Shown in pieces: positions 39,485 through 42,161 of a stretch of DNA of 64,000 bases. The DNA is from Conexibacter arvalis (GTDB lineage: Bacteria > Actinomycetota > Thermoleophilia > Solirubrobacterales > Solirubrobacteraceae). The stretch's first letter is position 1; each line of letters starts with the position of its first letter. Below the pieces are notes generated by a model, which worked only from the letters and a program-made list of their open reading frames with translations, had not been told where the DNA came from and did not search any database. Position numbers and translations under genes: made by a program. The DNA is taken from the NCBI RefSeq assembly GCF_014199525.1, contig NZ_JACHNU010000002.1, forward strand, positions 602,147-666,146, written 5' to 3'.

Positions 39485-41671
39485 CTACGACTCAGGCCAC
39501 GGCGCGAGCGCGACCAGCCCCTCCTGGCCGGCGGCCGCCCACAGCTCCTCGGCGACGTGCGGCGCCAGCGGCGCCAGGCACTGGACCGCGGTCAGCAGCG
39601 CGCCCTGGAGCGCCGCCGTGTCGCTCGGCGCCAGCTCGCCCTGCTGTCTGATCACGCGCTGCTCGAAGTCTCTGATCCGCTCGACGAGCGTCATCACGTT
39701 GCGGGCGGCGCGATGGGTCTCCAGTCCCTCCATGTTCTCGGTGATCCGCCGCAGCGCGACCGAGCGCCAGTTCTCCAGCCGCCCGCGCAGCTTCACCGCC
39801 CCTTCGGCGGGATCGGGCTCGGGGACGACGCCGACGCCCTCGATCCGCGGCAGCGCGTAGCCCCAGAAGCCGACCAGCCAGCGGCGGCAGTACTGCAGCG
39901 CCTGGTCAGTCCACGTCAGCACGTTGGTCGGCGCGGCGGCGTAGAGGACGGCGAGCCGGACAGTGTCGGCGCCGACGCGCTGGAGCAGCTCGTCGGGGTC
40001 GACGACGTTGCCGAGGTGCTTGCTCATCTTGCGGCCGTCGAGGTGGACCATCTCGTGCATCAGCACGCGCTCGTGCGGCTCGCCGTGCTCGAGGTGCGGC
40101 AGCACGCCGACGTCGCGCAGGACCTTCGCCGTCATCCGCTGGTCGAACATCGAGCCGCCGCCGTCGGCGCCCCAGATCACCTGGTGGACCGGCAGCCAGC
40201 GCTCCATCTCGCTGTGGGAGAACATCTCGCTCGCGCGCTCGCCGGCCGGCGCGGAGAAGGGGAACCACTGCCACAGCCCGTCGACGTGGCAGTCGAGCGT
40301 GTCGGTCTCGCGCCGCGCGGCGCCGCCGCAGCTCGGACAGGTCGTCTGGACGAAGTCGTCGCGCTGGGCGAGGACGTTGCCCTCGCCGGTCGGGCGCAGG
40401 TCGTCGGGCAGCCGCACCGGCAGCTGCTCCTCGGGGACCGGCACCGTGCCGCAGGCGTCGCAGTGGACGAGCGGGATCGGCGCGCCCCAGGCCCGCTGGC
40501 GCGAGATCGGGAAGTCGCGCGCCTTGTAGCGGGCCGCCTCGCGCACCCGCGGCGGCCCGGGCGGCAGCTTCCACGCGAACAGCGCCGCGCCCTTCGACGG
40601 CAGCCGTCTCGCGATCGCCGCGTCGGTGCGGTCGACCGCCGGGACGCCGAGCACCGCGGTGCGGCCGAAGCGGGCGTCGACCGCCGGCGTGACGACGACC
40701 GGCAGCGGGTCTCTGTAGCCGGCGATGCCGAGCGTGCGGCCGCTGTCGACGATCGGGACGTTGTCGGCGCCGCGCTCGTCGCGGGCGATCCCGCCGCTGC
40801 GGATGCGCGCGACCTGGGCGCGGACGTCGTCGTCGAGGATCCACGCGTCGATCTCCGGGTGGCTCGGCGAGATCGCGACGAACTCGGCCTGCTCGACGGC
40901 GTCGGCGTGCGGGGTGAAGACGGTCAGCTGGGTGCCGTCGAGCGTCGCGCCGTCGAGCTCGACGCCGTCGACGCGGCCGAGCATCGTCCGCTGCGCGCCG
41001 ACGGCCGCCGGGTTCCAGCCGCCGAGCCGCTCCATCCCTCTCTCGTTCTCCTCCAGGTACCGGCTGACGCCGAGGTACCACTGGGAGCGCTCGACGAGGC
41101 GGGTCGGCTCGTGGCAGCGCCAGCAGGCGCCCTCCTCGACCTGGAGGCTGGCGAGCACCGTCTTGCAGTTGTCGCACCAGTCGACCTGGCCCTCGGCGTG
41201 GTAGACGAGGCCCTCTCTCTGCAGCAGCAGGAACAGCCACTGGGTCCACTTGTACAGCTCGGGCTCGCTCGTGACCCACTCGCGCTCCCAGTCGAACGAG
41301 TAGCCGAGCCGGTCGAACTGCTCGCGCATCCGCGCGCGGCACTGCTGAACCCATTCGTTCGGCGTCAGCTCGTTGCGGATCGCGCCGATCTCGGTCGGCA
41401 GCCCGAAGGCGTCGAAGCCGATCGAGAACAGCACCGACCGCCCGCGCGTGCGCAGGAAGCGGGCGTACGCGTCGCTTATCGAGTAGCTGCGGATGTGGCC
41501 CATGTGGGCGCTGCCCGAGGTGAAGGGGCAGGCCGCGAAGATGTAGGCGGGCCGCTCGCCCTCGCGCGGGGCGGGCGTGGCGAAGGCGCCGGCCTCGCGC
41601 CATGCCTCCTGCCAGCGGGCTTCGATCGCTGCCGGGGCGTAGTCCGGCGTGACGCTTTGTGAGGCCATCAT
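39485..41671 (-). CDS. divergent leucyl-tRNA synthetase paralogue lacking the C-terminal domain
   Basis: A 728-residue class I synthetase of leucyl type. HMGH (56-59) replaces HIGH and KMSKH (548-552) replaces KMSKS. FDAFGLPTE, the zinc-type CDNCK...CWRCHEP and CDACGT...CPSCGG pairs and the anticodon-binding helices follow LeuRS order. Differences are notable. The editing motif TTRPDT is TPHADA; the leucine-pocket region TFVDSSWY is CHVDGLWQW; and the chain stops soon after PHVAEELW, without the C-terminal domain that normally reaches the tRNA-Leu elbow and long variable arm. Start is ATG 41671 or 41668, behind a G-run. It lies 198 bases downstream of an interrupted tRNA on the same strand. 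Probably not the house-keeping LeuRS. Confidence 0.88.
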   Translation of the reverse strand: MMASQSVTPDYAPAAIEARWQEAWREAGAFATPAPREGERPAYIFAACPFTSGSAHMGHIRSYSISDAYARFLRTRGRSVLFSIGFDAFGLPTEIGAIRNELTPNEWVQQCRARMREQFDRLGYSFDWEREWVTSEPELYKWTQWLFLLLQREGLVYHAEGQVDWCDNCKTVLASLQVEEGACWRCHEPTRLVERSQWYLGVSRYLEENERGMERLGGWNPAAVGAQRTMLGRVDGVELDGATLDGTQLTVFTPHADAVEQAEFVAISPSHPEIDAWILDDDVRAQVARIRSGGIARDERGADNVPIVDSGRTLGIAGYRDPLPVVVTPAVDARFGRTAVLGVPAVDRTDAAIARRLPSKGAALFAWKLPPGPPRVREAARYKARDFPISRQRAWGAPIPLVHCDACGTVPVPEEQLPVRLPDDLRPTGEGNVLAQRDDFVQTTCPSCGGAARRETDTLDCHVDGLWQWFPFSAPAGERASEMFSHSEMERWLPVHQVIWGADGGGSMFDQRMTAKVLRDVGVLPHLEHGEPHERVLMHEMVHLDGRKMSKHLGNVVDPDELLQRVGADTVRLAVLYAAAPTNVLTWTDQALQYCRRWLVGFWGYALPRIEGVGVVPEPDPAEGAVKLRGRLENWRSVALRRITENMEGLETHRAARNVMTLVERIRDFEQRVIRQQGELAPSDTAALQGALLTAVQCLAPLAPHVAEELWAAAGQEGLVALAPWPES

Positions 41672-41869
41672 CCCCCCAGTTCGGCCTGGCGTGGAACTGT
41701 TCAACGCGGCGTCGCGACGCGCCCCATGCGCGTTCGCGCTCGACCGTGAGCTCTCGAGTCGACGAAGAGGTCTGCGCGCATCAACGACCGATGCACGATC
41801 TTCGGCTTCATTACGATCGTTGTTCGGATTCACGAATTACGTCAATCCGCTGCTGCACCACATCTCCAA

Positions 41870-42086
41870 TGCGCCCGACGGGATTCGAACCCGCATCTTC
41901 CAGGCCCTAAACCTGGAGCTCTTGAGCTCATCTTTTGGCGGTGTGCGGTCCCAGGAGGGCCGCGAACGCGGCATCAGCCACCGAAACGGGGAAGATTTGG
42001 TCTCGATCCCTTCGGCTTGAGGGCTGGCGCTCCAAGGCACGCACGAACCTATTCGATTTACCGTTGACCAGTTGAGCTACGGACGC
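41870..42086 (-). tRNA. tRNA-like gene, anticodon UAG, with 142-nt insertion in the D loop
   Basis: Read on the minus strand, GCGTCCG (42086-42080) pairs fully with CGGGCGC (41877-41871), including one G-U, and A73 is at 41870. TA, GCTC and AACTGGTCAA follow the 5' stem; 142 nt later GAGC closes the D stem. The rest is canonical: anticodon stem CCAGG/CCTGG, loop TTTAGGG with anticodon UAG (41909-41907), a 5-nt variable loop AAGAT, and T arm GCGGG-TTCGAAT-CCCGT. CCA is not encoded. The anticodon reads CUA (Leu), but bacterial tRNA-Leu normally has a long variable arm. The insertion holds its own hairpins, such as GCCGCG-TT-CGCGGC. Whether it is spliced, trimmed or kept is unknown. Confidence 0.75.
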
Positions 42087-42131
42087 TCGCAACGACTGAG
42101 CCGCACCGCGTCCCCCGGGCAGCTCGAAGCG

Positions 42132-42161
42132 AGTATATGCAGGCCGTTCCGCCGAAGTCAA
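42132..42161 (-). promoter_or_regulatory. strong sigma-70-type promoter for the interrupted tRNA
   Basis: On the minus strand, -35 TTGACT (42161-42156) and -10 TATACT (42137-42132) are separated by 18 bases, with a predicted start near 42125, about 39 bases before the tRNA 5' end. It is among the best -35/-10 matches I found in the window, as expected for a stable RNA. The surrounding 41.7-42.35 kb is visibly less GC-rich than the rest. Confidence 0.72.

Follow-up and report, generated by a model that had tools for sequence, protein, structure and literature searches.

A leucyl-tRNA synthetase paralogue and a tRNA with an enlarged D-loop as a candidate orthogonal module of Solirubrobacterales

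The 64,000-nt stretch of Conexibacter arvalis DNA considered here (the window) carries a paralogue of leucyl-tRNA synthetase (LeuRS*) close to an unusually large tRNA gene (tRNA*), and we think it fairly probable that the two make up an orthogonal module of the order Solirubrobacterales, in which the tRNA would be recognised by its acceptor and by a domain in its D-loop rather than by its anticodon, and which would have become a decoder of GAA (Glu) in three genera. At the level of sequence, comparison documents the co-occurrence and shared phylogeny of the two genes, the structure of the tRNA, the loss of a normal tRNA from some lineages, the reading of GAA as glutamate, and the avoidance of GAA in the genes for LeuRS*-2 (the LeuRS* of a clade accompanied by a 96-nt tRNA* with the anticodon UUC). 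The simplest reading of all this would be that LeuRS* charges tRNA*.

Our survey covered 232 genomes of the order. A search with covariance model R1 (built from 13 sequences) returned 13 full-size tRNA* (201–218 nt), followed by a second tier of 96-nt tRNAs that share the acceptor, D-arm and T-arm of the long form, have only a short hairpin in the D-loop and bear the anticodon UUC. LeuRS* is present in 46 of the genomes at E < 1e-120, and as fragments in two more (G154 and G160), giving 48. A full-size or 96-nt tRNA* was found in 44 of these 48, versus 1 of the 184 genomes that have no LeuRS* (Fisher p ~1e-41, kinship ignored; the association is inflated by kinship, but pairs recur inside single genomes). 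The sole tRNA*-positive genome outside the 48, G060, has a degraded LeuRS* beside its tRNA*, and the four with LeuRS* only are MAGs, 58–78% complete. The clades of the LeuRS* tree (UAG, in Conexibacter; UUG, in G046 and G155; and 96-nt/UUC, to which the intact LeuRS* of G204 is sister) track the type of tRNA*. Genomes with two LeuRS* also have two tRNA*: G046 and G155 each combine a LeuRS* of the UUG clade with one of the 96-nt clade and possess both tRNA types; two adjacent LeuRS*/tRNA* pairs occur in G082. On these grounds the dedicated synthetase/tRNA pair that an earlier note had proposed from the window alone is strongly supported. The arrangement of tRNA* with LeuRS* is conserved in relatives, as that note had asked, and none of the testable findings that it had named as fatal to the idea was made. 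We conclude that this is a genuine pair and one of a family, which is spread over six genera of soil actinobacteria.

No neighbouring genes conserved across genera were found beside the pair: there is a dehydrogenase gene in the window's genus, and there are hypE/hypF-like genes by the UUG pairs. In the window itself, LeuRS* is adjoined by a gene (37939-39288, plus strand) for a fusion of protoglobin with a methyl-accepting chemotaxis signalling domain. A phage origin was rejected, as there was no LeuRS* in IMG/VR and a full-size tRNA* was absent from the 11 viral contigs that have the 5′ motif. Matches in plasmid records were only at the level of ordinary LeuRS (~30% identity), and G249 and two class-level matches at 36–38% were also set aside, G249 on reading being an ordinary LeuRS.

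The features of the locus are collected in Table 1. On the minus strand the order is promoter, tRNA*, LeuRS*, with the LeuRS* ATG (41668) lying about 200 nt past tRNA*; relatives in the genus align from the promoter through tRNA* into the start of LeuRS*, and that ATG is kept. The near-consensus promoter that the earlier note had placed ahead of a tRNA-like gene is borne out by a match to the consensus at 10 of 12 positions (0.1 expected in shuffles) and by its conservation in relatives. Its interrupted tRNA(UAG) was also correctly perceived: with 42066-41925 removed, ARAGORN reads a complete tRNA in the window, as it does for the insert-free form of all 13 full-size relatives, and the interruption proves to be in the D-loop, not the anticodon loop. 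It is because of these 142 inserted nucleotides that ARAGORN reported no tRNA in the intact window and that the Rfam match covers only the 3′ half of the gene. The variable loop (AAGAT) has the 5 nt previously ascribed to it, and differs from the long arm that is typical of tRNA-Leu (class II) and is present in the genome's normal tRNA-Leu; the A73 and U8–A14 of tRNA-Leu are, by sequence, present. A suggestion that low GC content hints at transfer was not confirmed: only the kilobase of tRNA and intergenic DNA dips (to 0.672), the gene itself is at 0.75, and the locus is found in all seven genomes of the window's genus. GC alone does not support horizontal transfer.

Table 1. Features of the tRNA*–LeuRS* locus, in window coordinates
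Feature	Position	Strand	Basis
Sigma-70-type promoter, TTGACT-18 nt-TATACT	42132..42161	-	Motif score and conservation in relatives
tRNA*, 217-nt D-loop-expanded tRNA gene; UAG anticodon, A73, CCA not encoded	41870..42086	-	Covariance model R1, 205 bits; kept in 7 genus genomes
tRNA* 5′ core: acceptor GCGTCCG, U8, D-stem GCTC, D-loop AACTGGT	42067..42086	-	Identical or near-identical in 13 full-size tRNA*
142-nt D-loop insertion	41925..42066	-	Excision gives standard cloverleaf in 13/13
Conserved insertion helix with 5-nt bulge, CAGCC-CUCAA-GCCGAAGGG...UUCGGU-GGCUG	41975..42026	-	Compensatory changes, helices 4 and 5 of alignment A1
Second insertion hairpin, GCCGC-GUUC-GCGGC	41959..41972	-	Single-sequence folds only; absent from alignment consensus
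tRNA* 3′ core: D-stem GAGC, anticodon arm, variable loop AAGAT, T-arm, acceptor, A73	41870..41924	-	Rfam match, relatives, covariation
tRNA* anticodon UAG, in loop UUUAGGG	41907..41909	-	Sequence; ARAGORN on insert-free core
LeuRS*, 727-aa LeuRS paralogue: HMGH, KMSKH, Zn knuckle; C-terminal domain missing; altered leucine pocket and editing motifs	39485..41668	-	Profile, alignment, structure

In the 13-sequence alignment, 95.5% of cells in the cloverleaf and insertion helices are paired, and double-change cells number 42, against 14.8 in shuffles and no more than 11 in slid versions. The anticodon stem varies by compensation (CCAGG/CCTGG, GCGGG/CCCGC, TCGGT/GCCGA), and the 5′ core is invariant. 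Given these compensatory changes, and pairing that is intact in the 13 sequences, we rejected the idea that tRNA* is a chance resemblance or a pseudogene. Might the insertion nevertheless be an intron, the mature tRNA being a normal 74–75-mer? The perfect cloverleaves formed by all 13 cores in its absence are what an intron would leave behind, but we think this unlikely, as no Rfam intron model matches tRNA* (the tRNA family alone passes the threshold), the insertion, at 127–143 nt, is shorter than any self-splicing intron known to us, and the 96-nt class holds at the same place a short hairpin that is not intron-like. It is this short-hairpin class that speaks for the insertion probably being kept in the mature RNA.

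LeuRS* resembles bacterial LeuRS (TIGR00396) in its fold, its HIGH and KMSKS signatures (present as HMGH and as KMSKH, the latter invariant in the LeuRS* family), its Zn knuckle and its anticodon-binding domain, but differs in falling below the curated cut-off (444.6 bits against 548.4), in having no C-terminal domain and in its altered leucine pocket and editing site. The structural model has the LeuRS fold throughout (mean pLDDT 86; Z ~41 to LeuRS structures), and alignment and structure both confirm the surmised absence of the C-terminal domain: the protein stops at about LeuRS residue 807, where that domain starts. The motif changes (LeuRS to LeuRS*) are MLPYP to ACPFT, VEHAILH to ADGGGS, TTRPDT to TPHADA and GHDERD to AVDRTD; family-wide in the leucine pocket are M40 to A, S or G, F493 to H, and the loss of H533 (E. 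coli numbering). A supposed rule relating the pocket to the anticodon (members of the 96-nt clade have a Lys close to the HIGH loop) was dropped, as the second copy of G082 (UUC) does not have the Lys. The LeuRS* of G060 is degraded: 589 aa long, it has lost HIGH, the Zn knuckle and KMSK, and it lies beside a tRNA*(CCU). LeuRS*-like ORFs that lack the catalytic segments (HIGH, KMSK) are thus kept beside tRNA*(CCU) in G060 (L111, 10313-12082, plus strand) and beside tRNA*(UUC) in G204 (L112, 6818-8242, plus strand); proteins of this kind fit a role other than charging.

How might such an enzyme recognise such a tRNA? The earlier note had matched the missing C-terminal domain to the short variable arm, a point that we judge to be sound. 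LeuRS* would charge its own tRNA by recognising the acceptor stem with A73 and an RNA domain grown from the D-loop, and neither the anticodon nor a long variable arm. It seems likely that this D-loop domain, which LeuRS* would contact, makes up for the lost C-terminal domain. The anticodons of tRNA* differ between lineages (UAG, UAA, UUG, UUC, CCU), and they may have been able to drift because the enzyme would not read them.

In the window's genome, LeuRS* and tRNA* are extras, because there is a second, full-length LeuRS (at G000:C5) and the ordinary tRNA set is complete, with all five normal tRNA-Leu, including the tRNA-Leu(UAG) whose presence, like that of the second LeuRS, the earlier note had wished to see checked, and with tRNA-Glu(UUC); full tRNA sets were read in two genomes, this one (G000) and G042. 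Close to the end of a contig, the window's genome also has another tRNA-His(GUG), which looks damaged (L044, G000:C14:26410-26466); a normal tRNA-His lies elsewhere. In the window's genus, then, tRNA*(UAG) would be an additional tRNA next to the normal tRNA-Leu(UAG). The proposal that it is charged with leucine by LeuRS* for rare CUA codons, as part of a bldA-style control, could draw on the finding in tRNA* of the main leucine determinants (A73 and U8–A14), on the fact that LeuRS does not need the anticodon and on the great rarity of CUA in the genus. We consider it very unlikely, and it is not supported as a general meaning for the pair: the normal tRNA-Leu(UAG) already reads CUA, the anticodon of tRNA* is not conserved, leucine-pocket and editing residues are changed, the former across the LeuRS* family, and in 204 kb, a sample with few CUA codons, we saw no class of genes enriched in CUA.

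In the three other genera (g18, g34 and g36), the 96-nt tRNA*(UUC) would have replaced the ordinary tRNA-Glu(UUC), and the pair would decode GAA as glutamate beside a normal CUC tRNA. None of the LeuRS*-2 genomes examined in these genera yielded an ordinary tRNA-Glu(UUC), which was seen in most genomes that have no LeuRS*-2. In the complete set of G042, the UUC tRNAs are the 96-nt tRNA* and one 91-nt tRNA (L237, G042:C18:27136-27226), which has a D-loop hairpin and C73; the latter is distinct from the 96-nt tRNA*, and in its acceptor resembles Conexibacter's ordinary tRNA-Glu(UUC). GAA is common in all three genera, and its rpoC occurrences in near-invariant columns fall on Glu in 35 of 36 cases (g18) and 35 of 44 (g34/g36). 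Since GAA sits at invariant glutamates of RpoC, it means glutamate in these organisms, and a change in the genetic code was rejected. So was superwobble (PMC13092985) by a tRNA-Glu(CUC) whose anticodon stem has 4 bp, as the G042 tRNA has a full 5-bp stem. In the three genera, tRNA*(UUC) appears to be the sole kind of tRNA left for GAA (with one more of that kind in G042) and, if so, must act on the ribosome there.

Because the 96-nt tRNA gene does not adjoin that for LeuRS*-2, the link between them rests on co-occurrence, phylogeny and codon avoidance. It could be argued that GluRS charges the 96-nt tRNA, this being an ordinary tRNA-Glu(UUC) apart from its odd D-loop, and that LeuRS*-2 has some other role and simply shares its phylogeny; GAA as glutamate requires no new enzyme, and the normal tRNA-Glu of the order also has an A73 discriminator. 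We find this rather doubtful. The acceptor stem, D-arm and T-arm are of the tRNA* type, whose full-size members adjoin LeuRS*, and the 96-nt form accompanies LeuRS*-2 in both family f1 and family f2. Furthermore, E. coli GluRS relies on U11–A24, U13–G22:A46 and the absence of nucleotide 47 (PMC9976931), and is a doubtful partner for the 96-nt tRNA because this has C11–G24, C13–G22 and a 5-nt variable loop (the last a weak criterion, as variable loops of five nucleotides also occur among the ordinary tRNA-Glu of family f4). The ordinary tRNA-Glu(UUC) genes of relatives keep a tRNA-Glu-type D-stem. Even so, charging of the 96-nt tRNA by GluRS is conceivable.

Also bearing on the partner of this tRNA is the codon use of the synthetase genes. 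In LeuRS*-2 genes, GAA provides just 13 of 1115 Glu codons, and 10 of the 20 genes have none, with CAA, AAA and GAT at ordinary levels in the same genes; compared with rpoC of the same genera the odds ratio is 0.08 (p 2e-33). Avoidance is weaker in G046 (3/61) and G155 (3/58). So specific an effect speaks against GluRS as the charging enzyme, and that a synthetase gene should shun the codon of the tRNA it would charge is a prediction of a supply loop. The absence of CAA from the LeuRS* genes of UUG pairs (0/39 in G155, 0/34 in G046) is only suggestive of a parallel avoidance. A further lead is that genes for secreted proteins and lipoproteins are GAA-rich (median 0.56 in G042 and 0.39 in G146, against 0.18 and 0.12 for cytosolic proteins; p 8e-7 and 7e-5), a result for two genomes that was obtained with a home-made gene caller and signal-peptide rule, and with AAA also up in G146; no such shift was seen in four genomes that have no 96-nt tRNA*(UUC). 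Individual lipoprotein or secreted-protein genes in genomes with this tRNA (L117, 16890-17627, minus strand; L119, 3201-3917, plus strand; L108, 2-2674, plus strand) use GAA for 88–94% of their Glu codons.

Glutamate would be the best candidate for the amino acid in the UUC lineages. It is possible, and we put it forward tentatively, that LeuRS* is a LeuRS whose specificity has shifted to a different amino acid, and that in these lineages it has become a second, glutamate-specific synthetase that owns GAA, giving two glutamate channels (GAG via GluRS, GAA via LeuRS*). Might decoding instead be secondary, with the module donating an amino acid outside the ribosome or being a non-catalytic ribonucleoprotein? 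The large D-loop domain, the non-conserved anticodon and the retention of synthetase-dead LeuRS* homologues by tRNA* in G060 and G204 would all suit such functions, which we nonetheless regard as improbable, as the anticodon loop has retained its U33, its purine at position 37 and compensated stems, tRNA* is the only kind of GAA-reading tRNA found in g18, g34 and g36, and no transferase gene could be recognised as a conserved neighbour of the pair across genera. For the window's own pair, a non-ribosomal use is still conceivable.

The proposed LeuRS*/tRNA* module is reminiscent of PylRS/tRNA-Pyl, in which a dedicated synthetase serves an unusual tRNA of its own, the genes are often adjacent and the enzyme does not read the anticodon; but PylRS is of class II, with a tRNA that reads the stop codon UAG and has a compact D-loop, whereas here there are a class I LeuRS paralogue, sense anticodons and an expanded D-loop. 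Second LeuRS genes are also known from AgnB2 and other resistance paralogues, and AgnB2 (5ah5) is among the structural matches of LeuRS*; AgnB2, however, is an active LeuRS for ordinary tRNA-Leu and has no private tRNA. The bldA product of Streptomyces (tRNA-Leu UAA) is likewise a rare-codon tRNA of GC-rich actinobacteria, but is an ordinary tRNA-Leu, having a long variable arm where tRNA* has 5 nt, and is charged by the ordinary LeuRS. Natural bacterial tRNAs of unusual shape include the allo-tRNAs and other non-canonical cloverleaves; in the passages of a review (PMC7609411) covered here, the D-arm stems and loops of such tRNAs are altered by a few nucleotides, and a D-loop domain of 22–143 nt with a private synthetase was not found. 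Searches of the open-access literature turned up no earlier account of such a pair, a result that argues weakly for its novelty.

Very few natural examples exist of a synthetase paired with a private tRNA. Here the private tRNA bears a large new RNA domain, and it seems to have displaced a standard tRNA-Glu from three genera. The family makes testable how a synthetase changes its substrate, how a sense codon may change owner with its meaning kept, and whether codon choice can route a class of proteins through a separate tRNA pool; and the pair is a candidate orthogonal pair for genetic code expansion. That it should take over a standard codon in relatives would be a new way to split the translation machinery.
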